This document shows, piece by piece, positions 20,579-48,759 of a stretch of DNA of 64,000 nt. Positions within the stretch are counted from its first letter, which is position 1; each line of letters begins with the position of its first letter. The stretch comes from Owenia fusiformis (lineage: Eukaryota; Annelida; Polychaeta; Sabellida; Oweniidae): the NCBI GenBank assembly GCA_903813345.2, contig CAIIXF020000003.1, positions 16,756,931-16,820,930 on the forward strand. The letters are read 5' to 3'. Made by a program: the position numbers and the translations under genes. The notes under the pieces were generated by a model. The model saw only the letters and a program-made list of their open reading frames with translations. It did no database searches and was not told where the DNA came from.

Positions 20579-21039
20579 TGCATATGCCTTTTAAATGCCA
20601 AGAATCCTTAAAAGACATTTCTCGCTCTTTATTTTTAAGCTAATAAAACATGTTTGGAGGATGAAGAGCCCAATTTTAATAGATTTTATATAGGCCTACT
20701 AATATTTTTTATTATTGAGTGTGATGTTATGCCCCCTAGCAGTTGCACTGGTACACTTAAAAATTGATGGTAACTAGATAAGTAACATAACTGCAATAGA
20801 GTTCACGATATCTAATTATCTTATTATTAATTACTAGTAGTATACCAGTGAACCTTAAGCAGAATTCATACAAAAATTTACAATCCTTTTTCATATTTTT
20901 TTATATTGTTTTGTAAATCCATGAAAACTACTTCTGACTTTTTTGTCTGATCATTTTGCTCTTAATTATATCTGATTTCATAATTCTTCAATTTATTTGA
21001 CATTAGTAGATTTTGCTATTGTGAATTTTGCCATTTGTG

Positions 21040-22230: not shown

Positions 22231-22519
22231 AAGTGGTACAAACTTGTATATTGGGACAGCTGATGGTTGACAATACATAATGGATTATGTAAATTCAATG
22301 AACAATTTGATATCAATATAACATTATAATCATCATAATTTTTATCTTACAATACACAATCAGAAAGTTTACAATACATAACATTATATATTCAGTCAAC
22401 CAAGCTTAAAAGTCAGAAAAACCCACGTATTTTGCCTATTTTACACACCATGTATTTAAAAGAAGATAAATTTATGGAATAAGTCTGTAAGGACATGTCA
22501 TGGCCAAATGACCATTGAC
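22231..22519. other. Spacer between two arrays
   Basis: AT-rich unique sequence with several 'acaatacataa' repeats. No gene was seen. Confidence 0.5.
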
Positions 22520-25500
22520 TAAATTAAGGTAGTGCAAACCTAAAGGATTTAAACTGATGAAGAGAAAAATAGACTAATAAATATATTTCACTCATATAAA
22601 AAGGGTGAATTAAGGTATTCCAAACCTAGAAGACTTAAAAGCTGACTGATGAAGAGAAAATTAGACTAATAAATACATTTCCCTCATAGAAAAAGGGTGA
22701 ATTAAGTTAGTGCAAACCTAAAAGACTTAAAGGCTGACTGATGAAGAGAAAAATAGACTAATAAATACATTTCACCCATACAAAAAATATGAATTAAGGT
22801 AGTGCAAACCTAAAAGACTAAGGCTGACTGATGAAGAGAAAAATAGACTAATAAATATATTTCACTCGTATAAAAAGGGTGAATTAAGGTAGTGCAAACC
22901 TTAAAGACTTAAAGGCTGACTGGTGAAGAGAAAATTAGACTAATAAATACATTTCCCTCATAGAAAAAGGGTGAATTAAGGTAGTGCAAACCTAAAAGAC
23001 TTAGGCTGACTGATGAAGAGAAAAATAGACTAATAAATACATTTCACCCATACAAAAAAGATGAATTAAGGTAGTGCAAACCTAAAAGACTAAGGCTGAC
23101 TGATGAAGAGAAAAAAAGATTAATAAATACATTTCACTAATATAAAAAATATGAATTTAGGTAGTGCAAACCTTAAAGACTTCGGATTACGCAGACTATT
23201 GAAGAGAAAAATAGCCTAATAAATACATTCCACTACAAACAAACATGAATTAAGGTAGTGCAAATCTAAAAGACTTAGGCTTAGGCTGACTGATGAAGAG
23301 AAAAATAGACAAATAAATCCATTTCACTCATATAAAAAGGTTGAATTACATGAATTAAGGTCATGCAAACCTAAAAGACTTAGGCAGACTGTTGAAGAGA
23401 CTCATGAATACATTTCACTCGTTTAAAAAGGGTGAATTAAGGTAGTGCAAACCTAAAAGACTTAGGCTGGCTGATGAAGAGGCAAATAGACAAATAAATA
23501 CATTTCACTCGTATAAAAAGAGTGAATTAAGGTAGTGCAAACCTAAAAGACTTAGGCTTAGGCAGACTGTTAATTGAAGAGAAAAATAGACTCATAAATT
23601 CATTTCACTCGTATAAAAAGGGTATATTAAGGTAGTGCAAACTTAAAAGACTTAGGCAGACTGATGACGAGAAGAATAGACTAATAAATGCATTTCACTT
23701 ATATAAAAAGGTTGAATTAAGGTATTGCAAACCTAAAAGACTTAGGCTGACTGATGGAGAGAAAAATAGACTAATAAATGCATCTCACTCATATAAAAAG
23801 GTTGAATTAAGGTAGTGCAAACCTAAAAGACTTAGGCAGACTGATGGAGAGAAAAATAGACTAATAAATGCATCTCACTCATATAAAAAGGTTGAATTAA
23901 GGTAGTGCAAACCTTAAAGACTTAGGCTTAGGCAGACTGTTGAAGAGAAAAATAGACTCATAAATACATTTCACTCGTATAAAAAGGGTGAATTAAGGTA
24001 GTGCAAACCTAAAAGACTTAGGCAGACTGATGAAGAGAAAAATAGATTAGTAAATGCATTTTACTCATATAAAAAGGTTGGATTAAGGTCATGCAAACCT
24101 AAGAGACTTAGGCTTAGGCAGACTGTTGAAGAGAAAAATAGACTCATAAATACATTTCACTCGTTTAAAAAGGGTGAAATAAGGTAGCACAAACCTAAAA
24201 GACTTAGGCTTAGGCTGACAGTTGAAGAGAAAAATAGACAAATAAAAACATTTCACTCATATAAAAAGAGTGAATTAAGGTAGTGCAAACCTAAAAGACT
24301 TAGGCTGACTGATGAAGAGAAAAATAGACTAATAATTACATTTTACTCATATAAAAAAGATGAATTAATGTAGTGCAAACCTAAAAGACTTAGGCTTAGG
24401 CAGACTGTTGAAGAGACTCATAAAGACATTTTACTCATATAAAAATGGTGAATTATGGTAGTGCAAACCTAAAAGACTTAGGCTTACGCAGACTGTAGAA
24501 GAGAAAAATAGACTCATAAATACATTTCACTCATATAAAAAGGGTGAATTAGGTAGTGCAAACCTAAAAGACTTAGGCTTAGGCAGACTATTGAAGAGAA
24601 AAAAAGACTAATAAAATAATATATCTCAATCATATAAAAAGGGTGAATTAAGGTAGTGCAAACCTAAAGACTTAGGCTTAGGCAGACTGTTAATTGAAAA
24701 GAAAAATAGACTCATGAATACTGAATACATTTCACTCGTATAAAAAGGGTGAATTAAGGTATTGCAAACCTAAAAGACTTAGGCAGACTGATGAAGAGAA
24801 AAATAGACTAATAAATGCATTTCACTCATATAAAAAGGGTGAATTAAGGTAGTGCAAACCTAAAAGACGAAGGCTGACTTATGAAGAGAAAAATAGACTA
24901 ATAAATACATTTCACTCATGTAAAAAACATAAATTAAGGTAGTGCAAACCTTAAAGACTTAAGATGACTGATGAAGAGAAAAATAGACTAATAAAAACAT
25001 TTCACTCATATAAAAAGAGTGAATTAAGGTAGTGCAAACCTAAAAGACTTAGGCTGACTGTTGAAGAGAAAAATAGACAAATAAAAACATTTCACTCATA
25101 TAAAAAGAGTGAATTAAGGTAGTGAAAACCTAAAAGACTTAGGCTGACTGTTGAAGAGAAAAATAGACTAATAAATACATTTCACTCATGTAAAAAACAT
25201 AAATAAAGGTAGTGCAAACCTTAAAGACTTAAGATGACTGATGAAGAGAAAAATAGACTAATAAATACATTTCACTCATACAAAAAGATGAATTAAGGAG
25301 TGCAAACCTAAAAGACTTAGGCTTAGGCAGACTGTTGAAGAGAAAAATAGATTAATAAATACATTTCACTCATATAAAGAGGTTAAATTAACATAATGAA
25401 TACCTAAATGACTCAGGCTGACTGTTGAAGAGAAAAATAGACAAATAAAAACATTTCACTCATATAAAAAGAGTGGATTAAGGTAGTGCAAACCTAAAAG

Positions 25501-26390
25501 ACTTAGGCTGACTGTTGAAGAGAAAAATAGACAAATAAAAAAAAATTCACTCATATAAAAAGAGTGAATTAAGGTAGTGCAAACCTAAAAGACTTAGGCT
25601 GACTGATGAAGAGAAAAATAGACCAATAAATACATTTTACTCATATAAAAAAGATGAATTAAGGCAGTGCAAACCTAAAATACCTAGGCTTAGGCAGACT
25701 GTTGAAGAGAAAAATAGACTCATAAATACATTCATAAATACTAAAAGACTTAGGCTGACTGATGAAGAGAAAAACAGGCTAATAAATACATTTTACTTAT
25801 ATAAAAAGGGTGAATTAATATATTTCACTCATAAAAAATAGACTAATAAATACATTTCACTCATATAAAAAGGGTGAATTAAGGTAGTGCAAACCTAAAA
25901 GACTTAGGCTTAGGCTGACTGTTGAAGAGAAAATGAGGCAAATAAATACATTTCACTCATGTAAAAAAAACATGGATTAAGGTAGTGCAAGCCTAAAAGA
26001 CCAAGGCTGGCTAATGAAGAGAAAAATAGACTAATAAATACATTTCACACATATAAAAAGGGTGAATTAAGGTAGTGCAAACCTAAAAGACATAGGCTGA
26101 CTTATGAAGAGAAAAATAGACTAATAAATACATTTCACTCATGTAAAAAACATAAATTAAGGTAGTGCAAACCTTAAAGACTTAAGATGACTGATGAAGA
26201 GAAAAATAGACTAATAAATACATTTCACTCATACAAAAAGATGAATTAAGGAGTGCAAACCTAAAAGACTTAGGCTTAGGCAGACTGTTGAAGAGAAAAA
26301 TAGACTAATAAATACATTTCACTCATATAAAGAGGTTAAATTAACATAATGAATACCTAAATGACTCAGGCTGACTGTTGATACTTAAGG
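22520..26390. repeat. Tandem array, unit of about 85-92 bp, about 44 copies
   Basis: The unit core is 'ttaaggtagtgcaaacct', 'aaaagacttaggctgactg', 'gaagagaaaaatagactaat', 'acatttcactcatataaaaa'. Higher-order variants (with an extra 'ggctta', or with 'catgtaaaaaacataaatt') are interspersed, indicating local block duplications. One block at about 24830-25420 is repeated near 26040-26390. There is no coding potential. Confidence 0.9.
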
Positions 26391-26689
26391 AATAAAGAAT
26401 CATGTATCACTCTATATTGGAAATATAAAAGCATGAGTGTATGAACTAACCCATCTTCATAATGCACGAAGGTTTACCCATTTAAAGGGTGAATTAAAGT
26501 AATCAATACCTATAAAAATAAATATGTTTGCATAAAAACAATAAGCACAGTGCAGGATAATACATACGCACGGGTAGGCCAAATGATTATCACTCACCTT
26601 ATAACAGATAATAAATACTGTGAAATACTAATGAAATCACGCAGTAACTATGGGGAATCATTGTTAACACATATTTTCAACTGTAATAT
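26391..26689. other. Transition between arrays
   Basis: Contains degenerate units ('gggtgaattaaagtaatcaa') of the left array and unique AT-rich DNA. No gene was seen. Confidence 0.5.
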
Positions 26690-27275
26690 ATACAGATATG
26701 TACACAAACTACATGTCTGGTAAGAAGAGTTGAAACTTACTGATATGTGAAGACAAGGAGCATCTTACATTCTTACACATATTTTCAACTCTCATCACTG
26801 GACACATTAAACACTGTGAAATTCTTGTGAAACCATGTACTATATACAGTAACTATGATGGGGAATCAACTTACAATCACAATGAAACTGATAACTATAT
26901 TATATAGTACTGTAATATATACAGATATGTACATGAACGACATGTCCAGTAAGAAGAGTTGAAACTTACTAACATGTGAAGACAAGGAGCATCTTACACA
27001 TATTTTCAACTCTCATCACTGGACACATTAAACACTGTGAAATTCTTGTGAAACCATGTACTATATACGGTAACTATGATGGGGAATCAACTTACAATCA
27101 CAATGAAACTGATAACTATATTATATAGTACTGTAATATATACAGATATGTACATGAACGACATGTCCAGTAAGAAGAGTTGAAACTTACTAACATGTGA
27201 AGACAAGGAGCATCTTACACATATTTTCAACTCTTATCACTGGACAGATTGCACATTAAACTGTAAAACACTGGG
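26690..27275. repeat. Tandem array, about 221-229 bp unit, about 2.6 copies
   Basis: The unit carries 'taagaagagttgaaacttac', 'tgtgaagacaaggagcatct', 'ttttcaactct' and 'tgatggggaatcaacttaca'. Copies start near 26712, 26941 and 27162. A piece ('gtgaagacaaggagcatctt') recurs at 30578-30606 just beyond the stop codon of the giant ORF, tying this array to that element. Confidence 0.85.
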
Positions 27276-28054
27276 AAATCCTAAACCATGGCTAAAATGT
27301 ACTATCAAGCATTTCAGGTTGATAGAAAATAATTATTTACATACATCTACAACTACAGTATGAAACGCAGACTAGTTGCTGTGCGCTCACTAAAGTTGTA
27401 ACTCTTTAGATTTATATATTTATACATTACATTTATACATTATACATATGTGGTAAATGTAACTAAATGTAAGTAAATGATAAGAAATAAGACCAGACTA
27501 TTAAGGTAAATGTAACTAAATGACTTAAAGGGACCCAACACCATGGTCACATGATCAGTCGTGTGGAGGTAAGCTCCCAGTTGAAATAAAATCACTGTCC
27601 TCCTTTGGTTTCTGTGAAAAGTAGCTAATACCCTCATGTATTGGTCAGTTTGTGTGTCACACGACTAATCCCCACCATATGCTTCATTCAACATATTTTA
27701 TGCTATTGAGCTGCATATATAAACAGTACTTTGCAACTAAGGTCATACAGTATACTAACCCCTTGCAAATTGTAATTTATTGAATTCACAGTAAACCCAT
27801 CAATTTTTAAGAAAACAAAGAATATTGTTCTCATGGATCTATTATTTATGTTAGACTAACTATGAAAATATAAATATGAAATAATATGTTAGCTTGAAGT
27901 CATATATAAGATGAAAATATATGTTCATGCATTTGCATTTTTCCAAAGGGAATATTCCCATGTAAGTAAATACAGGTGCAATATATAATTTATATGTATA
28001 TCTATGTCATCTGTCTATACATGCGCGTATAGCCTAGTGTAACATGTGAACAAG

Positions 28055-28130
28055 ATGGTTCTTGAAAGAAATGAGCGTGGCAGATTTGCTAAAATGCCAC
28101 ATACACCACAAAAGCAAGACCAATTTGAAA
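28055..28130 (+). CDS. Candidate first coding exon, gene unknown
   Basis: ATG followed by 25 codons (MVLERNERGRFAKMPHT and on), ending in a strong donor (GAAA then GTAAGTTC). The basic RGRFAK-type start is a style I associate with DNA-binding or transposon proteins, which is inference only. No downstream plus-strand exons were identified. It could belong to the surrounding repeat-rich element. Confidence 0.3.
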
Positions 28131-28578
28131 GTAAGTTCATTATTCTCAAGGGTACACTTCAAGTGAAAGCTACATTGCTACAAGGCGGCCTATCATTCTG
28201 AGACAAATGTATTATCCAACGATTGTGATTTTCGAAGCTAAAATATGATATCTTGAGCAGATGGAAATACATTCCCATGAGATATGTATATTTATTCCAT
28301 AGTTAGCATGATATTCATAGGATAACATGTGAAAATAAAAACGGTATTTTTGTAATCAGTGGTAAAATATGATATTTTTGACAAATTTTCACTTAACCAT
28401 AACATACGGTTTTTTAGCCATGACATACGACGTCGTATGCGATGGTTTATGGATTTTTGCTACTTCAGACTCAAAACGAGGCTAAGTGTCAACATCGCCG
28501 GATCGTTTGGAAATTCGAATTAAATAACTTAATTTCCGACGATTCTGATGATGACTTTAACTATGGAATAAAAAGAAC

Positions 28579-28712
28579 ATCCTATGATTTACTCGTGATA
28601 TGATTTTAATCCACTCATGGATATTGATATCTGCTCTCTCTCGCTACGCTCACTCGTGCAGATATCATATCCATTCGTGGATAAAAATCATATCACTCAT
28701 AAATCATAGGAT
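28579..28712. mobile_element. Foldback (hairpin) element
   Basis: 134 bp, nearly a complete palindrome: 'atcctatgattta..tgatatgatttt' on the left mirrors 'aaaatcatatcactcataaatcatagga' on the right. A short loop region contains 'ctctctctcgctacgctcac'. No ORF is present. It is likely a MITE. Confidence 0.65.
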
Positions 28713-29299
28713 ATCCTCTATATAGTCAAAAGTGATAACTATTTATTGAGTGTAATGAAATGTATCCTTCGCTAACTGCTTTTGTTTGAGATAATTATCA
28801 TGAAATGTTTTTAAATCAATTTTTATGTGTGTCATTGATCCTAATCCACCCTGTAGTCTGGTGTTTGTAGAGCATTGCGACTCGTACAACTTATTCTCAC
28901 AAATATCAAACCTCATTTACTAATTAATTTTTTGTGTGAATATGAAGAGTCCAAGCATTGCTTTTTTATGTTTATTGTATAGCTATATTTAGCCTTGATA
29001 TCCATGATTTTTTAAAACAAAATCTCACCGTTAGATTTCGGGCTATTCATGTTTACTCATTTGTCTAATTGGAAAACAATGCAAATCTCTGAAATTCTAA
29101 GACGGTGAAAAATCATTAAAAAATACACAGATTCAGAATCCGGCAAGCATTTTCCCTTATTCCTCTCCGTTAAGAAGTTTTGCAAGGTGTTGGATTCCTT
29201 TAAGTTGATAAGAAGTAAGACCAGAGACTGGAATTTAAGATAACCCACTATTAAGAACTGGCTAAGATAAATTAAAAGTAATGAATAAGGCAAGAAATG

Positions 29300-30115
29300 A
29301 TTGAAGAAATACTACTAGTTACAAGTGGCTAAGATAAAATAATAAGTACCTAAATGACTTAAGTTTGTAAGGAATAAGGCAAGAAATAATTGAAGAAAAT
29401 CCACTATTTAGAAGTGGTTAAGATGAAGTAATGATTACCTAAATGACTTAGGTTTGTAAGGAATAAGGCAAGAAATAATTGAAGAAAATCCACTATTAAG
29501 AAGTGGTTAAGATGAAGTAATGATTACCTAAATGACTTAGGTTTGTAAGGAATAAGACAAAATGTTGAAGAAAATCCACTATTTAGAAGTGGTTAAGATG
29601 AAGTAATGGGTACCGAAATGACATAGGTTTGTAAGAAATAAGACAAAATTATTGAGGAAAATCCACTATTAAGAAGTGGTTAAGATAAAGTGATGATTAC
29701 CAAAATGACCTAGGTTTGTAAGGAATAAGACAAAATGATTGAAAAAAATCAGGCAAACATATAGGCCTATATGTTATATATACTATTGAGAACCTAAATG
29801 ACTTAGGTTTGTAAGGAATAAGGCAAGAAATAATTGAAGAAATCAACTATTTTAAGGCAAGAAATTATTGAAGAAAATCCACTATTAAGAAGTGGTTAAG
29901 ATGAAGTAATGATTACCTAAATGACTTAGGTTTGTAAGGAATAAGACAAAATGATTGAAGAAAATCCACTATTAAGAAGTGGTTAAGATGAAGTAATGAT
30001 TATCTAAATGACTTAAGTTTGTAAGGAATAAGAAAAAATGATTGAAGAAAATCGACTATTCAGAAGTGGCTAAGATAAAATAATGAGTACCTAAAATGAC
30101 TTAGGTCACAAACAA
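29300..30115. repeat. Tandem array, unit of about 85-90 bp, about 9 copies
   Basis: The unit contains 'acctaaatgacttaggtttg', 'taaggaataagacaaaatga', 'ttgaagaaaatccactatta' and 'agaagtggttaagatgaagt'. The first half resembles the 'cctaaaagacttaggctgac..gaagagaaaa' core of the array at 22.5-26.4 kb, so the two arrays probably share an origin. Confidence 0.85.
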
Positions 30116-30535
30116 ACTAAGAAATGTATATCCTCATCTAAGCTGCTGTCTTCTGGTCATTTATATCACCCTAAAACAAACTTAGTAATGTATATCCTCA
30201 TCTAAGCTGCTGTCTTCTGGTCATTTATATCACCTTAAAACAAACTTTGTAATGTATATCCTCATCTAAGCTGCTGTCTTCTGGTCATTTATATCACCCT
30301 AAAACAAACTTAGTAATGTATATCCTCATCTAAGCTGCTGTCTTCTGGTCATTTATATCACCCTAAAACAAACTAAGTAATGTATATCCTCATCTAAGCT
30401 GCTGTCTTCTGGTCATTTATATCACCCTAAAACAAACTTAGTAATGTATATCCTCATCTAAGCTGCTGTCTTCTGGTCATTTATATCACCCTAAAACAAA
30501 CTTAGTAATGTATATCCTCATCTAAGCTGCTGAAC
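30107..30535. repeat. Tandem array, 63-64-bp unit, about 7 near-identical copies
   Basis: The unit contains 'gtaatgtatatcctcatcta', 'agctgctgtcttctggtcat' and 'ttatatcaccctaaaacaaac'. The copies are almost identical, so amplification was recent. The array ends about 110 bp from the stop codon of the giant ORF. Confidence 0.9.
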
Positions 30536-30576
30536 ATATTTACATTTTTTGTACATAATATACAAATATTAAAATA

Positions 30577-30609
30577 TGTGAAGACAAGGAGCATCTTACA
30601 CATATGTTC
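30577..30609. repeat. Segment shared by the giant ORF 3' flank and the 221-bp array
   Basis: 'tatgtgaagacaaggagcat' continuing 'cttacacatat' is found here and in each unit of the array at 26690-27275. It lies 40-70 bp beyond the stop codon, in the presumed 3' UTR of the giant gene. Confidence 0.75.
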
Positions 30610-30645
30610 ATATTTTTAAATACATCTATTGGTTACATTCATCAA

Positions 30646-33600
30646 TCATTGCTTGAACCTTTTTGAACCCTGTCCAAATTGCATTTCAGGAGAATGTGGA
30701 TGCTTCTTGTTTTGTGATGTTTGATTAAAAGACTGCCAGAAAAGCTCTTTAAGTTCAGCAAGGGTTTGGTTAGATGGATATTTAAGACCATTCATATTCA
30801 TATAGGCTTTTATATTAGATATTTTGACATTAGTGTCAGATATGTTCAATGTTGTTTGGTGGTATTCAAGCTCAGTCTGGATTAATGTGTCAATGACATT
30901 TGGTTTTACAGATTCATCAAATATCTCAAAGCACATCATGTAAAGATTATTCTTAATGGTAAACTGTGCATGTTGGCCAGTATAGTTAGCCCTTCCATTT
31001 GATTTAATGCCATCATGAGAATACCATCCAGATTTAAGACTATTTTCTTGGTTAATGAATGGACATACCTCAACATAGAAGTGTGATCCGGTATAATATA
31101 TTATTGATGTTAATGCATACATTTTGTTTCGAATATATACAAAATATGGCAATTTCATTTCAAACATATTTTCTCTGATGCTTTGATTGTCAAATAAAAC
31201 AGTAAACATTAGAGGCTGGTTTTGTATTGTAATTTTACAATGGGGAATGATATCAAGATTATTTTCCCTACGACAAGAGAGGCAGCGATAATCAGGTGAA
31301 AGCTTCATTTCATGAGAACACTTCTGTTCAATGGTTTTTCTCAGGTCAATGGAAACATCATCTAATTTAGACATGTGTTCATATTCAAAGTCATGCATAG
31401 ATATTGTAATGAGAGCTTCAGTGTTGCGTATTCTGGAATCAAAGTGAGATGGGTCCCTTGGACAACGCTTTTCTAATTTGAATTGTAAGGCCAATTGGGA
31501 TTGTTCAGCAGGAGTTAACAATCTATGAAATATTGACCACTCTGCAACAACACTTCCGGTTTGTCCAAGTCCAAAATATTCTGATGCATTATCCGATGTT
31601 GACAGCAACCAATTCCAAAAGATCATCTTGCTTGCATGAAACTTGCCTTGCAATTTAAAGTCTAAACATTTAAACATTGTTTCTAAGGGTTTACTGAAAT
31701 GCACTTGTCCTATGAGTCTTTTGATAATTTCAGATTTTCTGCCAAAGATATTTAGAGTTCCTTCAAGTATGGAGTCAATGTGACAACTGTTGGTTACACC
31801 ATCTGAGCCCCACCTAAAGGATTGATAATGTGTATGATATATTTTAGGTACGTATGCAGGTTTTCGTTGCTTTTTTGTTTTTGGTACATCATACTCTCCC
31901 TGTACAATTTTGATGATTTCTGGATCAATTTTATCCCTCAATGAATCGCATCTTGTCAAAAGAAGGGCAGATTGAGCTAAGAATTTTGATTGTTGATGAA
32001 GAGTAGCAGGGATATTTGGCATTTCATTTTGTAAAACGCAAGATATGTGAAATTGTCTCAAGTAGATGAGGAGTTGGTTAACGTAATTTTCATTATATTC
32101 TATCTTGAAAATGTTTGTACCGACTGGTGTCCAGACAACAAAATGACATTCTTTAGCGCCACTTACTTTCATTTCTAGCATAACTTGGGGTATGTAGTAA
32201 GTAGGGATTTCTGAATAAGGGAATGGTTTTCCATTTTTCCATGGGCATTTCATTTCTATCACTATTTTTGTTCCATCTTCCAAGGTAACGAGACCATCAG
32301 GAGTGACCCCTAACCATATCCTACCCTCAGAACTGGTGTGTATGTATGTGCTTACCTCTTGAAATTTTGCATTTTTGAAGTGTGTTTCAAGATAATTGAG
32401 ATAGGTCACAGTTGCATAACGCTCACAAATTTTCCCCCAACGCATAGCAGAGTTTGAATCAATTTCTTTCCATGTACTGTTGTCAATGTGAAATTCTTTG
32501 ATTAAATTATAGTATTCTTTACGAGCAGTTGATCCATGCATGCCAAGACAGGTGGCTGCCATGCTGCCATTGATTTTACCCTTACGTAAGTCTAGCCATG
32601 CTTTTGACCCTTGTTTGATGCTACCAGTGTATTTAATGAAGCTCGAAAAGGATTCCAATACTTTAGATTTCAATGCATCAAGTAGTCCTATTACAGATTT
32701 CTTGGAATATGATTCAAAATCCTTGGAAAAATTGTGTTTTTTCTGTTTTTGGGAATTTTTCGATTTCTTTAAAGGGCATGTTTTATAATTGTGACCTTTC
32801 GTCTGACATCTGGTACAGGTTTGCTTTTTTAGCCATTCTGGATTTATAGGTGCTGTACATTGTCTTGCCCAATGACCAAAGTTCCGACAGTTAAAGCACT
32901 GATCACTAGATGATGGAATATTTAATTTTGGCTCATTTCCGCTGTAGGATTTCAAGTATTGCCTAATTGCACTATGATCGTTTTCACTGGGACAAAGATT
33001 GTCTTTCCGAATATAATACAAACATCTTTGTTTGAGAAACCTTTTGATGACATGACCAAATACAAATGCAGTATCAGTTGAATCTAATGATGGGTATTCC
33101 AATGCATTCAGTAACCTGTACCATGCTTGCCTTGTTTTTACATCACTATGATAGAAATTTAGAGCTGATAAAAGTACATCAGGCTTCCAAAAACCAGTGC
33201 AGAAAAATTGATTTCTTAAGTTTGAATCAATTTCAACCAAAAATTGTTGTACATTTGGCCAATTTCTGACCTGTTTCAGTGTGTTTGTAAGACGCTGAGC
33301 ACCTGTCATCAAAACATGAGGAGTATTTAGTTCTATATAAGCTGTAATTTCTTTAAATTGCTTTTTCAGAACTTTGCGGTCCCTGCCTGACATACCTGAC
33401 ATAGAGAGTAAGAGGGGAGAATCACTGGGAAGTTGTCCATCGCCAATATTCTCATATGATAAAGAATCATCTTGCCAATTAGCAGTGCTATGAAAAAGGT
33501 CTGTTTCATCCTTGCCATTTTTTGATCTTCTCTTGAGAGGAACTTTGGCTAAATTAGGCAAGTTCAGTGCATTATATGAACCTACAGTGTCATTGATGTC

Positions 33601-36600
33601 TGAGAACTCTCCTCTCAATAACTGATCAGTAGCTAATGTTGTATTTGTTTCAAAGTACTGGTTTACAGTTGGTTTGGATCCTGCAATGCGTTCCCTTTGT
33701 AAACTAAAATAATTTTCAACATCATCTTGGGAAAGGGATTTTGGAACAAAATTAACATTTTCATGGTAAAGTTGTAAATATGAGAATAACCCTATAGTTC
33801 CATTGATAGTTCGTACAATATCAGAGAAAGATTCATGTGTAATAAATGATTTATAATGGTCACGCAATGAGCAGCCATTCCTTCTAAATGCAGATGATTG
33901 TCTCACCTCAGCATTCCAATCAGTAAAATATTTCTTTACTTGGAGGAGTTGGCGGACAAAGTTTGGTTTTGGTGCACATGAATTGAGTGTCTCAAAAAAC
34001 ATTGCTGATGTTCTAATGTACTTTCTTAATTGGATAGTTTTATCGAAGTAATGTTCAGCCAAATCTTCACTGGTTGAATAGGAAAGTAGTTGAACTGCTC
34101 GCTTTACACTCATTTTAGTGCGCGCACTGAGAACAATGTGTTTCCACTTCAGCATAGTATTGTCGTTTTTTATGAGATCCACGATAAAGGATGGAGATAT
34201 ATCATGGCCATCAAAATGCATATGTCTATTGCTGGAGATTAGGTGATTTCTAAGTCTTTTTATCAAGTGTGGAAAATCAGAAAGCCAGTAAATTGGTTTG
34301 TTGTCATTATATGGGTTCGGACATACAAAATTGCTATTTCCTGCTGTTTTAAAAAAAGCACGTGAATATGCAGATCCATCGCAGACTGAATAAAGAATTT
34401 GCATGGTTTCTTTGTCATTGAGTTCAATTTTACTCAGGCATTGGATCACTTGCCATAGCATTGCATCAATTTTCATATGGTTAACCCTTGCCACTGGAAA
34501 TGAAGCTACGGGCCAACAAAAATCTCCCTCAATACTGGTGAAGAAAAATTGACATATCATGGTAGCTAGTTTATTTTTTTCAGGGATAGTTTGATCATCT
34601 GTTGTTGAAGATTGTGTGGAAAAACAATGAGATGATTGTGAACTAGATTGTGACTCTTCATTTACTTGGGAGGATTCTTGAGAGGATTTTGTTTCATGGG
34701 TTTCATGGATGTTGCAAAGGTATTCTTCTGGAATGTTCAAGTTTTCAAAACCTACTAAATTTCCTGTTCGCTTATTGATACATAATCCTTTCTTAATTAT
34801 TATCTCATCAAAATGAATACCGCCGACACCCTTGCATTTTCTTCGTTTAATTTCCTGAACCATTTTAGAAATGTTTTCAAGATTAATTGGGTCAGAGTTA
34901 CATGATTGCTGCCTATATTGTTTGATGGTGTTCCATCTTGGAATTGGAAGGATGTTACTTATTGCATCATAGCCACTCTCTCTACATTGATTTGCAATGC
35001 GGCAACACCATTTTATTGTCAAGGGACTATATCGCATACCTTTAGGACGTGGTTTCTTTTTCTCTTTTGTTAATTTTCCCTTTGATCTTTCAAATTGGGT
35101 TTCTTGTCTTTGTAGGGATAGCATAGAATCTTGTAAGATATGAAAGAGAATGGAATCAGATGACAACCATTTATTTTCTATTGCTGTGTCTACCATTTGA
35201 CCAAGTTGAGATGCATTGACCTTGAAATTAGCTGGAGCATTAACACGATTAGATCTTTGCTCTCGTAGGAGCCTATTGGCATAAACTACCTTTTTAGTAA
35301 GATTCATGTTCTCTTTTTTCAGGGATCTCGATTTCTCAAGTATTTCCTGGTATGAGAGGAATACATTTGGCGTATTGATGTTTGTATGGTCCGAGCCTCT
35401 CAGAAGATATCTAAGAGTGTTACGATGAGCCTCATAGCAATGCTTGCACAATGTGGTATGGACAGACTTAGCTTTATATTCACAACATTTGGTTCTTATC
35501 CTTGAATGATTTCCAATTGTTTCAAAAGTTAACTTGTCAAATGTTTTTCCTTGATTCACTCTTGATTGAAATTCTTTGATAATTTCACCATCTGTGATGC
35601 CAGTGCATATTTGAATATTGTCTGTCATTGGCAAAACATAATCAGAAATTACAGTTGACAGAGATTTCACATTGTTTGTAAGGTGACTTGGTATACGAAA
35701 ATTGTCAATCTCAGATTTTTGTATATGAATTGCACAATTCCATGAATTTTCAAGTTGGGATATGTACACATCAAAGTGGGAAAATTTATCAACATGCTTT
35801 GTCATTTTTATTTGATTTGCAGATATAAGAGCCATACTCCAAGGTTTACCTATTAGAGAAAGGCAGAGCTCTGTGATGACATTTATACAAGAGAATTCAA
35901 GTGGATCAGTGGCCGATTCAATCCGCAGACTAAGCAACTTCTCACAGATACCTGTCTCTGATTTAGATTGATAGGAGGTGGAGTTAGGGTCATTTGATTG
36001 TGCAACAAACAACGGTTTATCAACTGATTGCTGTTCAAATGAGGTCTGCTGCGCCTTTTCTGGAGATTTAGGCATATCATTTATCTCAGCTCCACTTGAA
36101 TGTGACATCTTGGATATTGAACATTGTTCTTTCAAAGGCACGGACAGATCATCAATTAATGAGTCTAATTTGTTAGAGGTTTTGATGAGCTCAAGAAAGT
36201 AGGACTCGCACTTTGAACAGGCATAACCTGCAATTTCAAGACTTGATGAAGATTCAGTTTTGCCAGTTGTATTTGGATCAATACTATATGTACAAGGGCA
36301 TGAAATCGTTTTTCCAGAAATGTTTAATACATGGCTACGACATACACTCGATGTTATGGTGTATGTTTCATTGCAATGCAAACATTGACTTTTGGTAAAT
36401 TGTCCACTACAGGTTTGTTTTGTATGCCTAAATCGCTTAGATTGCTTGTGTGGTTGACGACTATAATGAGCATTACAGATTTTTAAATTACCAGCATCAT
36501 CAGTTGTGAAGTTTTGGTCAATATCAATTTCATACAAGCCATTCAGCGTTTTCAATGTGCGACTACCTTCATTAGTACAGTGCAAAATGCAGCATCGACT

Positions 36601-37665
36601 TCCCCCTGTATTTGTTATGTTTCTGTTTATTGTCTGGTTGATGTCAATACTATCCTGATCAGATTCAACGAGATTGTCATCTAACACTGACTGACTATGC
36701 TTTCTAACAAAAGCTTCAACATACTTGTCGTAGTTGATGGTGGAACAAGTTGATGTTTTATTTTCAAATGTTGCCCTTGGTGACTTTTTACAGAACAGGC
36801 ATATTTTCTTTCTCTGAGTGTAGAAGGTATTAATACTGATAAATACTATGAGTATTGTGTCAAAAAAGAGTGACATTGTATCATATGATTCATTTTGACA
36901 GACCCAGTTTAATGCACTTGTGAAGAACAAACACATCATTTCTATGTGAAACGTTTGGAGAACTGCCCTGTACAGAATTACACAGAACAAAATCAAAATT
37001 GTTATGACTTGTAGTTCTCGTGGCATTCCAAAATACTCAGTGACAAATAGTATCCAGATAAGGATGGTCGAGAGAAAGTGTTCAAAAGAAGAGCATTTGT
37101 ATTTCAGTAATTCTTTGGTGTCATCAATGTCTCTGTTGATGTATTGGCGAAGTCCTAGTATCAAAACATCAAGGGCAAGATAGAATACTGCACTAGGAGA
37201 ACAAATAATTTCTCTGAATGTATCGATTAGGCGCAGAATCCATAGTTTGGTGTGCTTTACTAATGTAAACAAAAGGCCTACCCGTGGTTCACTATCGCAG
37301 GTAATTGAATCAGACTTGTCTTGTTTGGGAGGAATTTTGACCTTTGATTTCCACTGGTTTAGTCTCATGATTCTGTTAAGGTTCATACGCACAATGCATT
37401 TTCTCAATGGAATAGGCCTAACTGATCTGGAGTGGTGTTTATTTGTTCTGAATTTAAAAAAAGCCCAAAATGGTAATATCGGTTCAGGCAGTTTACTTTG
37501 ACCTTTTGGTTTGCTATTGGAGGTATTTGTGAGGAAGAATCCGAAGACTCCACAGAATAAGTGCCAGAACAATATGGGTGGTATGGGAACTAAACACATG
37601 AGATCTAATATTGCAAAATAAATTAGCAAAGTCAGAGATATAAATGTTGGTTTATGATAAGCCAT
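30646..37665 (-). CDS. Giant transposon protein: membrane region + zinc clusters + P/THAP9-like transposase + YqaJ nuclease + USP-like peptidase
   Basis: Single open frame of 2,339 codons from its first ATG (37665). The frame stays open upstream to a splice acceptor at about 37756, so an upstream exon may contribute. Order by residue: 1-290, five or six hydrophobic segments; 290-490, Cys/His clusters (CLFCKK, CCILHC..CNAHY, CLHC, CSKC); about 730-750 another (CKHCYEAH); about 770-800 Leu/Lys coiled coil; about 950-1315 RNase H-like core resembling P-element/THAP9 transposases (GIHFDEI, VCDGSAYSR, DFPHLIKRLRN, QDDVENYF); 1590-1628 two CCHC knuckles (CFNCRNFGHWARQC, CTRCQTKGHNYKTC); about 1675-1880 YqaJ-type nuclease (GVTPDGLV, IEMKCPW, PQVMLEM); 1955-2215 a USP-like peptidase (TNSCHIDSIL near the start, SHFYVEV and GWYSHDG near the end). 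All acidic and Cys/His motif residues look intact. The family assignments are mine from motifs. Confidence 0.8.
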   Translation of the reverse strand: MAYHKPTFISLTLLIYFAILDLMCLVPIPPILFWHLFCGVFGFFLTNTSNSKPKGQSKLPEPILPFWAFFKFRTNKHHSRSVRPIPLRKCIVRMNLNRIMRLNQWKSKVKIPPKQDKSDSITCDSEPRVGLLFTLVKHTKLWILRLIDTFREIICSPSAVFYLALDVLILGLRQYINRDIDDTKELLKYKCSSFEHFLSTILIWILFVTEYFGMPRELQVITILILFCVILYRAVLQTFHIEMMCLFFTSALNWVCQNESYDTMSLFFDTILIVFISINTFYTQRKKICLFCKKSPRATFENKTSTCSTINYDKYVEAFVRKHSQSVLDDNLVESDQDSIDINQTINRNITNTGGSRCCILHCTNEGSRTLKTLNGLYEIDIDQNFTTDDAGNLKICNAHYSRQPHKQSKRFRHTKQTCSGQFTKSQCLHCNETYTITSSVCRSHVLNISGKTISCPCTYSIDPNTTGKTESSSSLEIAGYACSKCESYFLELIKTSNKLDSLIDDLSVPLKEQCSISKMSHSSGAEINDMPKSPEKAQQTSFEQQSVDKPLFVAQSNDPNSTSYQSKSETGICEKLLSLRIESATDPLEFSCINVITELCLSLIGKPWSMALISANQIKMTKHVDKFSHFDVYISQLENSWNCAIHIQKSEIDNFRIPSHLTNNVKSLSTVISDYVLPMTDNIQICTGITDGEIIKEFQSRVNQGKTFDKLTFETIGNHSRIRTKCCEYKAKSVHTTLCKHCYEAHRNTLRYLLRGSDHTNINTPNVFLSYQEILEKSRSLKKENMNLTKKVVYANRLLREQRSNRVNAPANFKVNASQLGQMVDTAIENKWLSSDSILFHILQDSMLSLQRQETQFERSKGKLTKEKKKPRPKGMRYSPLTIKWCCRIANQCRESGYDAISNILPIPRWNTIKQYRQQSCNSDPINLENISKMVQEIKRRKCKGVGGIHFDEIIIKKGLCINKRTGNLVGFENLNIPEEYLCNIHETHETKSSQESSQVNEESQSSSQSSHCFSTQSSTTDDQTIPEKNKLATMICQFFFTSIEGDFCWPVASFPVARVNHMKIDAMLWQVIQCLSKIELNDKETMQILYSVCDGSAYSRAFFKTAGNSNFVCPNPYNDNKPIYWLSDFPHLIKRLRNHLISSNRHMHFDGHDISPSFIVDLIKNDNTMLKWKHIVLSARTKMSVKRAVQLLSYSTSEDLAEHYFDKTIQLRKYIRTSAMFFETLNSCAPKPNFVRQLLQVKKYFTDWNAEVRQSSAFRRNGCSLRDHYKSFITHESFSDIVRTINGTIGLFSYLQLYHENVNFVPKSLSQDDVENYFSLQRERIAGSKPTVNQYFETNTTLATDQLLRGEFSDINDTVGSYNALNLPNLAKVPLKRRSKNGKDETDLFHSTANWQDDSLSYENIGDGQLPSDSPLLLSMSGMSGRDRKVLKKQFKEITAYIELNTPHVLMTGAQRLTNTLKQVRNWPNVQQFLVEIDSNLRNQFFCTGFWKPDVLLSALNFYHSDVKTRQAWYRLLNALEYPSLDSTDTAFVFGHVIKRFLKQRCLYYIRKDNLCPSENDHSAIRQYLKSYSGNEPKLNIPSSSDQCFNCRNFGHWARQCTAPINPEWLKKQTCTRCQTKGHNYKTCPLKKSKNSQKQKKHNFSKDFESYSKKSVIGLLDALKSKVLESFSSFIKYTGSIKQGSKAWLDLRKGKINGSMAATCLGMHGSTARKEYYNLIKEFHIDNSTWKEIDSNSAMRWGKICERYATVTYLNYLETHFKNAKFQEVSTYIHTSSEGRIWLGVTPDGLVTLEDGTKIVIEMKCPWKNGKPFPYSEIPTYYIPQVMLEMKVSGAKECHFVVWTPVGTNIFKIEYNENYVNQLLIYLRQFHISCVLQNEMPNIPATLHQQSKFLAQSALLLTRCDSLRDKIDPEIIKIVQGEYDVPKTKKQRKPAYVPKIYHTHYQSFRWGSDGVTNSCHIDSILEGTLNIFGRKSEIIKRLIGQVHFSKPLETMFKCLDFKLQGKFHASKMIFWNWLLSTSDNASEYFGLGQTGSVVAEWSIFHRLLTPAEQSQLALQFKLEKRCPRDPSHFDSRIRNTEALITISMHDFEYEHMSKLDDVSIDLRKTIEQKCSHEMKLSPDYRCLSCRRENNLDIIPHCKITIQNQPLMFTVLFDNQSIRENMFEMKLPYFVYIRNKMYALTSIIYYTGSHFYVEVCPFINQENSLKSGWYSHDGIKSNGRANYTGQHAQFTIKNNLYMMCFEIFDESVKPNVIDTLIQTELEYHQTTLNISDTNVKISNIKAYMNMNGLKYPSNQTLAELKELFWQSFNQTSQNKKHPHSPEMQFGQGSKRFKQ

Positions 37666-37889
37666 AGCTTGTTCTATATTTACCTTGAAAGAAATGAGAA
37701 GTGATGAGAACTGGAGCCTAGTGCTGTAGTGATACAGATAGAGCAAGAGAGTGTTCTGAAAATATAAAATAATAATACCACTTTATGCCTTTTATTTATA
37801 AAATCAACACAGTGTAATATCTAATAATATTGTAAAAAATAAACATATAATCTAATATGTTGCATGTACAAACATTGTTTATAATCACT

Positions 37890-38850
37890 TATCTTGTTTA
37901 TATATTTACCTCAATGAGTGAAAGTGTAGGCTTGTGAGTGACACCGGGTGAGTGACAAAGCAGATGAAGATAGAGTAGACAGGCAGAGAGTTTGGTGATG
38001 ATTCTGAAAAGATATAAAATAATATCAATTTATGTCTGTTATTGTTAATAAACTCAAAATAATATGTCATGTACCAACATTGTTTATAATCACCTATCTT
38101 GTTTATATATTTACCTCAATGAGTGAAAGTGTAGGCTTGTGAGAGTGACTCCGGGTGAGTGACAAAGCAGATGAAGATAGAGTAGACAGGCAGAGAGGGT
38201 GGTGATGATTCTGAAAAGATATAAAATAATATCAATTTATGTCTGTTATTGTTAATAAACTCAAAATAATATGTCATGTGCAAACATTATGTAAAATCAC
38301 CTATCTTGATTATATATTTACCTCAATGAGTGAAAGTGTAGGCTTGTGAGAGTGACACCAGGTGAGTGACAAAGCAGATGAAGATAGAGTAGACAGGCAG
38401 AGGGTGGTGATGATTCTGAAAAGATAAAATAATATCAATTTATGTCTGTTATTGTTAATTAACTCAAAATAATATGTCATGTACAAACATTGTTTATAAT
38501 CACCTATCTTGTTTATATATTTACCTCAATGAGTGAAAGTGAAAGTGTAGGCTTGTGAGAGTGACACCGGGTGAGTGACAAAGCAGATGAAGATAGAGTA
38601 GACAGGCAGAGAGGGTGGTGATGATTCTGAAAAGATAAAATAATATCAATTTATGTCTGTTATTGTTAATAAACTCAAAATAATATGTCGTGTACAAACA
38701 TTGTTTATAATCACCTATCTTGTTTATATATTTACCTCAATGAGTGAAAGTGAAAGTGTAGGCTTGTGAGAGTGACACCGGGTGAGTGACAAAGCAGATG
38801 AAGATAGAGTAGACAGGCAGAGAGGGTGGTGATGATTCTGAAAAGATAAA
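37890..38850 (-). repeat. Five tandem units of about 207 bp, each with acceptor, exon and donor
   Basis: On the minus strand each unit reads: pyrimidine-poor tract and TTTTCAG acceptor, an exon of about 94-102 nt (encoding HSHKPTLSLIE at its end in one open frame), then GAG followed by GTAAATAT. The unit nearest the giant ORF has its exon at 37910-38003. The ORF's own 5' end repeats the pattern: acceptor at about 37756, then a segment ending TTCAAG with GTAAATAT, so it looks like a diverged sixth unit. The array may supply a promoter, a leader or alternative first exons. Confidence 0.75.
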
Positions 38851-40250
38851 TAATAGGCCTATCATTTATGTTGATTTCGGCTATGTCTTTGACTGTATAT
38901 TTACATGCATAAGTAGGTCCTATTTAATGGACCCTAGGATGATATTATAAGTAGAGAAATATTGAACACATTTAAATATTAAGTGCCATGGGTTGGGCTG
39001 CTGGAGAAGACATATATGTACATGCAAACTATTGTACATTAGCCTAGTATTAAATTGAGCCTATTATAAAGAATGAAACATACATGCAAAATATAAGCAA
39101 GGGAATGTTCATCAACTAGTCTAGACATAAAGCTGACATGCAATGCAACAAACTGGCAATGTGTCATTGAGACAAGTATGACTACAACTAGGCTATATAA
39201 AAATTCTACTTTATCGATTTATAGATGTCACTCCTGCAATCCCAATTTCTTAGAATGCACTCAGTTGAACTTGCCCGATAGCTCCCCCTGTTCATCATTG
39301 TTCATAGCAACGAATAGCGTCGTTGACAAATGTTTCTAAGTCTAGATATGTAGATAGGCTCTATATACTAAAATAAGCATATGAGTATGATAGAAAGACA
39401 GTCGCAGTGTTTTTGTATCATCAAAATAAACGTAGTGCAATATAGGCCCTAAATGGATTTTCGCGGCAAATTTTCGGATTTCAAAATTTGCAAATTAAAA
39501 CATCGAATGATGAATGTATTTGACATAGACTTAAATGAATAACTAATGAAATCAAAACATAAATATGTTATGCATATTGTCATAGTTTTTAATTAAACGG
39601 TTATGTTCATGGTGTGTAATAAAAAAAGAATTTATACTCACCACTGAAATGCACACGTACTTGTTGTATGTATGAGTGAAGCAGAGGATGTGCGATGAAC
39701 GAAACTATTTTACATGAACGTGTATATCGTTCCCGGGAACATATTTACCATCAAATAAAAGAAAGAAGATATATATGTTATCTTTAGTACTTTTATTACA
39801 TTATGTGCATATTATTATGTCTTACAAAATGTTAACTATCTTGTTTTCAAACAATACAGAAACAATCTTAAAAATAGCCCAAATTCCCGGGAAAATGTAA
39901 CGTGAAAACGAAAAATATCTTGTAGTAAATACACTTTAAACGCCTTGATGAAGAAATATACTTTGCTTTGAAATTTTATTTTTCGATAATTGGTTACCCA
40001 TATATATGGAAAGTAATAATTAACAAAAATATTAATAAAATATCCAGTATTAACAGAAATACAGTCGTGTGAAGTGAAGACTCGCATCGTAAATGATCAC
40101 GTCAGAAAGGTGGACAGTCCATGTTTACACAATGCTACGAGAGAGAATAAACAGAGAACATTCCTATTTTGTATACGGTCTGAAAGAATATATAATCAGG
40201 AACATGCTCGTTCAAAAATCATAGAATTTGGTTCAGTATTGATCAAGTAG
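38851..40250. other. Presumed 5' flank of the giant element
   Basis: No ORF was seen. On the minus strand at about 39640-39655, 'CATTTCAGTG' is followed by GTGAGTAT, a plausible donor for a noncoding first exon of the giant gene. The sequence 'agttgaacttgcccgatagc' at about 39263 is loosely like the shared motif at 40340. No terminal inverted repeat to the left side could be identified by eye. Confidence 0.35.
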
Positions 40251-40620
40251 CAAGTATTTTAGTGCTCAGTATTCTTTATTCTTTAGCGCGATCGCGTCAT
40301 TTCAACAATGACGCGACAAATAGAGCGGCTGCTCCTATGTGGGGAGACAGGCTATCGAAAGCGCATCGGCCAAATCGCTCTCGTTTGCGACGTCAAAGAC
40401 AGAAGACAGCGGCCCCCTGTTCAAATCTTGCAAATTTTGACCTTTGAAAAGCATTTTTATAAAAAGTCGACATTCACAATTCTAATGGAATTATTGTATT
40501 CTAATTTCTATCATGTTATTATTTCGTCGTCCATAAGTGCAAATATACTACTGCTTAAGATAGTCTTGGTGGAATAGTCATATATAAATCTGACCTCCGT
40601 ATGCTGTTTGTTGTTATTTT

Positions 40621-40708
40621 TTCTTATTTGGATATTTTTTTATTTTCTTGCATACTGTGGTAGACTATATGCCAAGAAAACAATAAAAAATAAATATCCA
40701 AATAAGAA
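40621..40708. repeat. Imperfect hairpin upstream of DHODH
   Basis: 'ttcttatttggatatttttt' (40621 onward, arm of about 30 bp) is mirrored by 'aaaataaatatccaaataagaa' ending at 40708, with a loop of about 22 bp. It could be a small foldback element or a structured part of the 5' flank. Confidence 0.6.
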
Positions 40709-40777
40709 CAAGGAACATCGAAGAACAGCATATAATGGTCGGATATACACAATTTGTAATTGCTTGTTGTCTTGAAT

Positions 40778-43700
40778 ATGGTCCGTAAACATGTATAAAA
40801 ATTGAGTCTGGGTCTCCTAAGAAAAAACTTTTTTGAAACTCTCAAACTCACTTAATTATACATGTTCCTGGGCCTATGGCCACTTTCATGTCACATTCTC
40901 AGAATAACTATGATAATTCTTTTCCAGCAACGGTATAGGGATGCCGCCATAGTTATAGGTGGAGGCACTGCCCTGTTTATCCTTCAGGCGATAGGGACAG
41001 GAAATGAGAAATATTATGATGAATGGGTTATGCCAACACTTCGTCGCTTAATGAACCCTGAAAAGGCTCACAATTTTGCAGTGTTTTGTGCCAAACATGG
41101 TCTAGTCCCTTACATGAAGAAACAGAATCATGATGTTTTGGTAAGCACTTGATATTTATACACAGAATAAAATAAAAGAATTAGATGGAGGGAGGGAGGG
41201 AGGGATCGAGGGAGATATCACTAACAAGAAGTGATATATTTTTATAGCCACTGTGACTGGTGATTGGCATCATTGTTTGGCAGTCAGCATCTGACACAAA
41301 TGTTAAGCCTACACTTTTGTAACTGCAACCATGTGGTGACATTTTTACACACTAATGCCTTGTTCTATTTGATAATAGGCTACATGAACTGTACTTATGG
41401 TTTTGATATATGGATGTAAACTAGACAGACCATCTTGTGTGACGTATGCAAGTGCAAAGTGTCTCAACTTTAACATTTATGAAGTACTCAACTACAAAAG
41501 AGTAGGGGTTGGGAAGAGGGTTGCCGTATGATCTTTTCATTCCTGTTTGTATGGTTTACATGCACATACAGTGAAGAAGCATTTGACCTTTTTCTAACTA
41601 CCCTGAAAAATTAAATAAGATATGATGAATAATAGCAAAACAATGGTTGTCATAGTAACGTGAATACGGGTTCTGCGGAGCAATTTCTTACTTTAATAAA
41701 AATGTTATAATGCAATGAAATTGATTAAGAAATTGATTAAGATTAATGCTGCATATGTCTTTGTTTGCTATGGCTGAAAGTCACGACAAACATAACAACA
41801 ACATACAAAAATATGATACCATGGCAACAGTAGTCTATGACATCACAGACAGATGATACAACAGATGGAATGATCCAGAATAATCCATCAGACACTGCTC
41901 CATGACATCATCAAAATCATGGCTGCCAGGATTGCCAATGGAAGCAAAATGAACAATGAAATGAAACAACAATTGAGAAGTAGCATCAGATACAATGTGT
42001 TGCTAGGGAAATCCAAGCAGGATACCATTAGGGATATCCAAAAAGCATATGGGGACAGTGTGCCTAAGTACACAATCTACAAATGGTATCAGAAATTCCA
42101 AAAGGGGAGAAAAACAACAAGTGATGAGCCAAGGTCAGGGAGGCCAAAACTTCTAACCAAAGAGGCTAACATGAATCATTTGAGGCAATTGTTAGATGAA
42201 GACCGCAGTATAACTGTAAGGGAACTCTCAGAACTAACCAATATCAGCCTAGGATGGGTACATTATCTGATTCACAATTCTCTAAATATGTCCTTGGTGT
42301 CTGCGAAATGGGTACCAAAGAATCTGACCGACGAGCAGCGTAGAAATCGCCTGGAAGATTCAGTTGCATTCTTGCGCCGTTACAAAGATGAGGGAGAGGA
42401 CTTTCTAAACAATCTTCTCACTTGTGATGAAACTTTTGTTCGATACTTTGAGCCAAATAGTACAAGACAGAACAGTGCGTGGCGAACAAAGAACTCTCCA
42501 ACACCCGTGGGCATCGTTGCAAAGCTAGCTCTTGGAGCATCAGCGGGGAAAGTCATGTTTATCATTTTTATAGACATCGAAGGTCCATTGTTGGCTCATG
42601 CCGTGCCAGAAGGGCAGACTGTTAACAAGGAATATTATGCCATGGTAATTACATTTTATGAAATATATCTTTCTAATAATTAGTTTGGTTTGAGTACTAG
42701 GTCTACCTCTGAAATAATACAAAGAAAACATTTTAACTTAAACATCAAATGACCAAATTCACATTTCATTTTCAGGTGCTGCGGCGCCATCTTGTGAACG
42801 CGATTCGCAAGAAGAGGCCCCATAGGACTCTCAACTCCTACATATTCCATCAAGATAATGCGCCATCGCATAGGTCGCAAATGGTGCAGGATACTATCCA
42901 GAAAACGCTGGAGATGGAGGTTCAAGGCCAGTCAGCGTATTCTCCTGACAAAGCACCGTGCGATTTTGGAGTATTTTCATGTTTGAAAAATGATCTGCGT
43001 GGTAAGATCCACGCAAATATCCATGAGCTTCAGAATGCCGTTCAATGTTCGCTGACAAAGAACTTTCCAGATGGCTTCCACAGGATATATCAGAAGTGGA
43101 TAGAACGACATCAGCTGTGTGTGAAAGCTAAGGGGAACTACTTTGAACATGAAATAGAATGCTAACTTGAAAGTAGAAATGTGGAGTAGCCACAGAACTA
43201 TGGTTGAAATATAGACAGGACAGAAACTAACGTTAACAAAATCTACTATGCTGTGAACTTATAAAATTGCTCCGCAGAACCCGTATTCGCGTTACTATGA
43301 CAACCACCATTTTGCTGTTATTCATTATATCGTGATCATTTTTTCAGGATAGTTAGAAAAAAGTCTGATGCTTCCCCACTGAAAATTTGAACGATAATAG
43401 ACAAGAAATAAAAGTTTGAGAGCAAAATTAGCTTTACTTACTGAACGCCCTGTACATGGACAAATATCCCCTGCACTACTGTACTTTGGCAACATTTCTA
43501 GGATTTCCCCATGCCATTAAGCGTAAAATAATGTGACATGTACCATTATACCATATTCCCTTTCCACATGGATTTAGGTTGATTTAGAGTTGGTGACACT
43601 TGCTGAACATGCAACTAATGGCACTAATATTTCAGCATACCAAAGTATGGGATCAAGAGTTCACTTCTCCCGTTGGACTTGCAGCTGGTTTTGACAAGCA

Positions 43701-48756: not shown

Positions 48757-48759
48757 GAT

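Follow-up and report, generated by a model that had tools for sequence, protein, structure and literature searches.

The 64,000-nucleotide stretch of the annelid Owenia fusiformis analyzed here (assembly GCA_903813345.2, contig CAIIXF020000003.1, forward-strand positions 16,756,931 to 16,820,930; hereafter the window) carries on its minus strand a giant open reading frame (ORF) that joins a P-type transposase to a nuclease and a peptidase. From its N-terminal side this one frame encodes a C2CH finger, then an RNase H/GTP-binding-type transposase with two zinc knuckles behind it, a YqaJ nuclease and finally a peptidase of USP fold, each part being established by sequence or by fold. With moderate confidence we take the frame to be the coding part of a large DNA transposon of the P transposase type, autonomous in appearance, which would make one, self-processing polyprotein. 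Protein searches brought in 21 relatives (given P numbers below), so that with the window 22 sequences were scanned for motifs.

The giant open reading frame

The minus-strand frame is open from 37782 to 30646, with a TGA at 30648-30646 and 2,378 sense codons, and its first in-frame ATG, at 37665, would begin a protein of 2,339 amino acids (aa). Residue numbers of the window polyprotein are counted from this ATG. The longest open frames in 20 mononucleotide shuffles of the window ran to 109-176 codons, and so the single frame of more than 2,300 codons reported in a preliminary description of this DNA lies far above what shuffled sequence yields. That description had placed the frame at 30646..37746. 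Its 3' end agrees and its start is doubtful: the listed start is a TTG at 37746, unlikely in a eukaryote and a product of bacterial start rules. The frame had also been called intronless, which holds for these 7 kb without a stop; a splice-acceptor-like TTTTCAG on the minus strand, whose end at 37756 is in frame and precedes the ATG, leaves an upstream coding exon possible. Also on this strand, a splice-donor-like GT (37683-37682) closely precedes the ATG, and TATA-like sequence occurs further upstream, near 37800. No credible upstream exon resembling the front part of P0017 or P0021 was found, the best matches (E 0.003 and 0.011) being proline-rich stretches against a frame at 57 kb. The sequence motifs quoted in the preliminary description are all present, and are placed on the following features:

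30646..37665, minus strand: polyprotein ORF, ATG to TGA, 2,339 aa (frame scan; openness extends to 37782)
36823..37644, minus strand: N-terminal module with five hydrophobic, transmembrane-like stretches, residues 8-281 (hydropathy scan)
36601..36606, minus strand: GG (G354-G355) immediately ahead of the C2CH finger, a candidate site of cleavage (GG in nine of 11 proteins)
36433..36600, minus strand: C2CH zinc-finger-like domain, residues 356-411, C-x3-C ... C-x2-H-Y (alignment A8)
33706..34821, minus strand: core of the P-type transposase, an RNase H domain carrying a GTP-binding-type insertion; D953, D1096, E1317 (Pfam, PDB profile comparison)
32776..32898, minus strand: two CCHC zinc knuckles, residues 1590-1630 (Pfam, motif scan)
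32155..32598, minus strand: YqaJ/lambda-exonuclease-like nuclease, residues 1690-1837; E1748, D1790, E1804, K1806, Q1827 (Pfam, TIGR03033, fold)
30919..31797, minus strand: USP-fold cysteine peptidase, residues 1957-2249; candidate triad C1961, H2195, D2218, by position (AlphaFold2, VIA-align, Foldseek)

Transposase, nuclease and peptidase domains

The transposase core was recognized both by Pfam and by comparison with solved structures. TNP-like_RNaseH_N (PF21787) matches the window polyprotein at 3e-7 (31.3 bits, cut-off 24.6), and TNP-like_GBD (PF21788) at 3e-5, with 24.9 bits against a curated cut-off of 24.8, a margin of 0.1 bit. The latter family is stronger in P0001 (36.1 bits) and P0016 (50.3 bits), and is absent from the Pfam matches (E up to 5) of P0002, P0005, P0007, P0008 and P0015. 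As a single sequence the polyprotein matches the Drosophila P transposase (6p5a) at 2.1e-5, and a four-sequence profile does so at 8.2e-12. The motifs are HFDE (D953), VCDG (D1096), SDFPHL (from 1129) and QDDVENY (E1317), and the profile alignment with the 6p5a chain places D1096 on residue 303 and E1317 on residue 531. The catalytic residues of the P transposase are D230, D303 and E531 (PMC7776569, excerpt). D953 lies outside the profile alignment and is, by position, the likely counterpart of D230. As judged from sequence, the polyprotein therefore appears to have both the split RNase H domain with GTP-binding insertion and the catalytic triad (D953/D1096/E1317, D953 by position) of the P transposase superfamily. 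The helix-turn-helix (HTH) family Tnp_P_element (PF12017) gave the window no Pfam match (E up to 1), and among the relatives it stays below cut-off in P0017 (E 0.14) and P0015 (E 2.4).

Pfam finds five families in the window polyprotein at E up to 1. Among them are zf-CCHC (2.6e-4), for the knuckles that start at 1590 and 1617, and YqaJ (6.3e-15). TIGR03033 matches at 2.3e-18, with 66.8 bits against a cut-off of 68.05, and VIA-align of the AlphaFold2 model matches the fold of the YqaJ part to LHK-Exo and lambda exonuclease. The motifs TPDG (D1790), IEMKCP (E1804/K1806) and PQVMLEM (Q1827) are invariant across six aligned sequences, except that P0007 has PDA for PDG. Both the PD-(D/E)xK core and the family profile of YqaJ/lambda exonuclease are present, and the nuclease of the preliminary description is well founded. 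The same description had suggested that the polyprotein could also anneal DNA ends; that role has no support, as none of the five Pfam families is a domain for single-strand annealing.

The peptidase proposed in the preliminary description, carrying NSC (C1961) and HFYVEV (H2195), was recovered by fold comparison alone, with no sequence-profile match. VIA-align and Foldseek place the AlphaFold2 model near true deubiquitinases (USPs). The rows that locate the USP cysteine are 9f6g (USP30), 7ay2 (USP1), 5l8h (USP46), 5k1c (USP12), 3v6c (USP2) and 3mtn (USP21); in each the alignment begins four residues before the catalytic Cys, which then falls on C1961. The VIA-align lists are dominated by one or two domains and inform mainly on these. 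The model, of moderate confidence, predicts a USP fold in which the Cys sits where the first core helix starts, at its N-end, and the His, by position, on the later sheet.

The N-terminal part

The preliminary description mentions neither the hydrophobic module nor the GG junction, nor the ubiquitin-like domain seen in relatives; these features point to polyprotein processing. The front parts of P0002, P0015, P0017, P0018 and P0021 have six to eight hydrophobic stretches each. Homology between the window module and those of relatives was considered and is not borne out, as shuffled sequences reach the real scores: 50, 13, 6, 98 and 43 of 200 shuffles for P0018, P0021, P0017, P0015 and P0002, and for the first part of the module 229, 189, 140, 26 and 19 of 300, in the same order.

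In 11 proteins the frame extends far enough to include the first Cys of the finger; nine of them have a GG directly ahead of the finger, and in seven relatives a ubiquitin-like domain ends at this GG. The GG is also kept in the window and in P0016, neither of which has a recognized ubiquitin-like domain. In the AlphaFold model of the N-terminal half of P0018 (mean predicted local distance difference test score, pLDDT, 36.6), the ubiquitin-like part alone is usable. The C2CH spacing is conserved in alignment A8, and the finger profile finds, among the window ORFs, only the giant frame (1.6e-23; the profile itself includes the window). The finger is THAP-like in spacing only, with no THAP match in Pfam and no PDB match for the finger profile. 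Of the earlier label "P/THAP9-like", the P-type transposase is supported by Pfam and by the profile comparison with 6p5a, and of the THAP9 likeness, strictly taken, the C2CH spacing is what was seen. Two relatives carry a further domain in front, of GDSL/SGNH type and below cut-off in Pfam: P0017 (1.6e-6, 29.2 bits, cut-off 32.9) and, likewise, P0021.

Recurrence of the fusion

A check suggested at the outset was whether the fusion is conserved across copies. Six of the 22 sequences (the window, P0001, P0003, P0007, P0008 and P0012) show the complete order in a single frame: QDDVENY, one or more zinc knuckles, all three YqaJ motifs and NSC-x-x-D. P0006 stops within YqaJ, and the remaining 15 stop ahead of it; P0008 and P0012 stop before the peptidase histidine, and P0003 at that histidine. 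These relatives share 32-34% of residues with the window in the transposase end and 35-37% in YqaJ, and identity reaches 57% over the 28 peptidase residues of P0012. The transposase-end and YqaJ trees have a matching unrooted shape, and from these comparisons we interpret the fusion as an old one, passed on as a single unit. The coral Oculina patagonica is the source of one relative. P0007 (1,819 aa) has at residues ~1695-1780 a C-terminal tail that looks ParB-like (GNHRLWVA), with no Pfam match at E up to 5. P0002, a front half, and P0007, a back half, are 76% identical where aligned, and so one element would be expected to hold both halves.

With each part backed by profile or fold and the fusion recurring in relatives, the outcomes that the preliminary description had named as fatal to it (parts always separate, folds rejected, an accidental merger) did not materialize. 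That unrelated neighbours were joined by a chance open frame has next to no probability and is rejected, given the frame length relative to shuffles, the domain order conserved in six sequences and the matching trees of the transposase end and YqaJ.

A proposed route of release

The combination of a hydrophobic front, a ubiquitin-type GG and a distal USP-fold domain is most readily understood as a polyprotein that would process itself and so free its transposase. P transposases carry their THAP finger N-terminally (PMC7776569, excerpt), and viral deubiquitinases often cleave polyproteins at di-glycine sites (PMC9741609, excerpt). The polyprotein would be made anchored in a membrane. The USP domain, or a host USP, would then cut after the GG, as after ubiquitin or ISG15, putting the C2CH finger at a new N-terminus with its first Cys at residue 3 or 4. 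The released transposase-nuclease would enter the nucleus, bind repeated subterminal sites and make P-type cuts at the element ends; DNA ends at the donor gap or at the element might be trimmed by the YqaJ domain. The generalization that there is a class of giant P-type transposons in animals making membrane-anchored polyproteins with their own ubiquitin-like domain and USP, in which a GG cut frees a transposase with an N-terminal finger, is offered only tentatively. If it is true, proteolytic release from the membrane would switch transposition on, much as for some membrane-bound transcription factors, and transposase, resecting nuclease and deubiquitinase would form one machine.

Several observations weigh against the reading as a self-processing transposon polyprotein. 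The AlphaFold2 model behind the USP assignment has a mean pLDDT of 59.4, and whole-model TM-scores (template modelling scores, from Foldseek) are near 0.25. There is no match to a Pfam USP family and no PDB profile match to a solved USP (the C-terminal peptidase profile gave one chance row only), and so the claim is limited to a USP fold and does not extend to membership of the USP family. The first 150 peptidase residues of the five longer relatives are 26-28% identical to those of the window, and the small peptidase tree differs from the other two, placing the 28-residue P0012 piece elsewhere. No ubiquitin-like domain is recognized in the window, even with filters off, and no frame among the 22 sequences unites that domain with YqaJ/USP; the seven frames that bear it stop short of the RNase H part, within it or where it finishes. 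By shuffle comparison the window hydrophobic module is not significantly similar to those of relatives; P0020 and P0011 have no hydrophobic stretch, and P0016 and P0005 have one each. P0005 and P0011 also lack the GG, both frames beginning 28 residues before the finger. Finally, no pair of terminal inverted repeats (TIRs) with an 8-bp target-site duplication (TSD) was found with ends in 20001-30646 and ~37666-50010, a single copy being available: the search, which demanded an exact 10-base end and would miss less perfect ones, gave 396 pairs with none passing, and ten shuffles gave 288-345 pairs with 0-2 passing.

Alternative explanations

The strongest competitor keeps the same polyprotein and makes the USP domain a deubiquitinase acting on ubiquitinated host proteins or on the transposase, which would protect it from the proteasome, the ubiquitin-like domain being a decoy or folding aid with no self-cleavage at the GG. 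The proximity of the fold to true deubiquitinases fits this, as does the same role proposed for Helitron deubiquitinase domains (PMC9741609, excerpt), and the window keeps its peptidase motifs with no recognizable ubiquitin-like domain. However, the GG precedes the finger in those nine of 11 proteins even where, as in the window and P0016, no such domain is recognized, and we regard this alternative as rather unlikely.

A host gene domesticated from a transposon, now immobile and with a cellular function, would account for the intact frame of 2,339 codons and for the lack of a TIR/TSD pair around the ORF in the exact 10-base end search. It is made improbable by the large 90%-identity clusters of relatives (197, 359 and 406 member sequences for P0002, P0011 and P0012, counted without a split by genome), which are as expected of mobile families.

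Quite improbable, too, is an integrated virus or virus-like element that replicates itself and uses the RNase H protein as integrase. In style, a polyprotein that combines a hydrophobic part with a YqaJ nuclease and a peptidase resembles those of viruses, and P0017 has its GDSL/SGNH domain ahead (1.6e-6, below cut-off). However, no relative was found among IMG/VR viral contigs (four queries, with 0, 131, 7 and 0 pattern matches), and Pfam scans of four of the five window ORFs of at least 150 aa gave no capsid or polymerase family, spliced genes being invisible to such a scan. Among bacterial and archaeal genome contigs, 132 pattern matches likewise included no relative. The self-processing polyprotein of a P-type transposon remains the preferred reading.

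Flanking arrays and neighbours

Three tandem-array regions lie near the ORF:

37853..38855, no strand assigned: 207-bp tandem array just upstream of the ORF (repeat scan)
29278..30532, no strand assigned: tandem arrays close behind the 3' end of the ORF, with units of 89 bp, which carry CCTAAATGACTTAGG, and of 64 bp (repeat scan)
22522..26381, no strand assigned: 90-bp tandem arrays further downstream, with CCTAAAAGACTTAGG (repeat scan)

We infer that all three belong to the element. A near-palindromic box, CCTAAAWGACTTAGG, is common to two arrays with different units (90-bp, 22522-26381; 89-bp, 29278-30106) and occurs in dozens of copies across them; it was not found in the upstream 207-bp array at up to three mismatches. 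Exact CCTAAN5TTAGG sites number 25 against 0.04 expected in shuffles, a count inflated because the copies are tandem; what is notable is the box in two distinct arrays. In Galileo, of the P superfamily, THAP binding sites lie within tandem repeats of the long ends (PMC3688188, excerpt), and by this analogy the arrays with CCTAAAWGACTTAGG are possible candidates for transposase-binding regions. Comparison of the left and right flanks gave nothing below E 0.1.

Elsewhere in the window, a mariner-type transposase frame (41919-42683, plus strand; Pfam) is bracketed by 118-nucleotide inverted repeats (41569-41686 and 43264-43381, 86% complementary). A GDSL/SGNH-hydrolase-like frame (18066-18848, minus strand, 260 aa; 3.1e-6, with 28.2 bits against a cut-off of 32.9) sits downstream of the giant ORF, and no P relative matched it at 1e-3. 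The minus-strand frame at 57099-58100 ends in the start of a Ras-type GTPase (PF00071, 0.0039, below cut-off) and is presumably an exon of an RGK-type GTPase. Together with the mariner, the GTPase frame suggests animal DNA. A plus-strand frame (45448-46035) runs into a 23-24-bp minisatellite; its start resembles a dihydroorotate dehydrogenase exon. A further tandem array (52111-53349, units of ~125-277 bp) has inverted related pieces at 8259-8489 (75-88% alike). Scans of the window for tRNA and Rfam families found none.

Comparison with known systems

With the P element transposases (Drosophila P, Galileo, THAP9) the window polyprotein shares the split RNase H domain with its GTP-binding-type insertion, at or above Pfam cut-off, the aligned D303 and E531 (6p5a at 8.2e-12) and a C2CH finger ahead of the catalytic part. 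It differs in being about three times longer, the P transposase having 751 residues; in its added zinc knuckles, YqaJ and USP domains at the C-terminal side; in the N-terminal hydrophobic module and GG junction, ubiquitin-like in relatives; and in that neither THAP nor P-type HTH profiles match above cut-off and no TIR or 8-bp TSD was found. THAP9-like proteins are of 819 and 828 aa (PMC13228809, excerpt). Known P transposases have some 750-830 residues and an N-terminal THAP finger, against the conserved version of more than 2,300 residues here. The fusion of P transposase, YqaJ and USP is not described in the titles and abstract beginnings searched, most subscription papers and Repbase lying outside that scope, and a literature search joining YqaJ with 'P element' found nothing.

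ISL2EU elements (PHIS superfamily) are animal DNA transposons that likewise encode a YqaJ nuclease beside the transposase (PMC4482050, excerpt). There the YqaJ protein is a separate ORF, its function stated as unknown, and most elements have two ORFs with a PIF/Harbinger-related DDE transposase, in contrast to the single P-type frame of the window, which is accordingly no ISL2EU member; the excerpt mentions no USP domain. Helitrons with VTD or OTU domains also have a ubiquitin peptidase built into a transposon protein (PMC9741609, excerpt), but the peptidase family and the transposition enzyme are different ones. The nuclease, the USP-fold peptidase and the ubiquitin-like junction of relatives would together give a new control over when a transposase is activated, and it becomes a testable question whether a transposon protease frees its own transposase from the membrane.

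YqaJ, lambda exonuclease and LHK-Exo are stand-alone phage-type enzymes, whereas here the nuclease is a domain of a transposase polyprotein. The phage-type YqaJ/lambda exonuclease works with an annealing protein. P-type cutting leaves 17-nucleotide 3' extensions (PMC7776569, excerpt), and the YqaJ nuclease would be a new means of handling them in cut-and-paste transposition.

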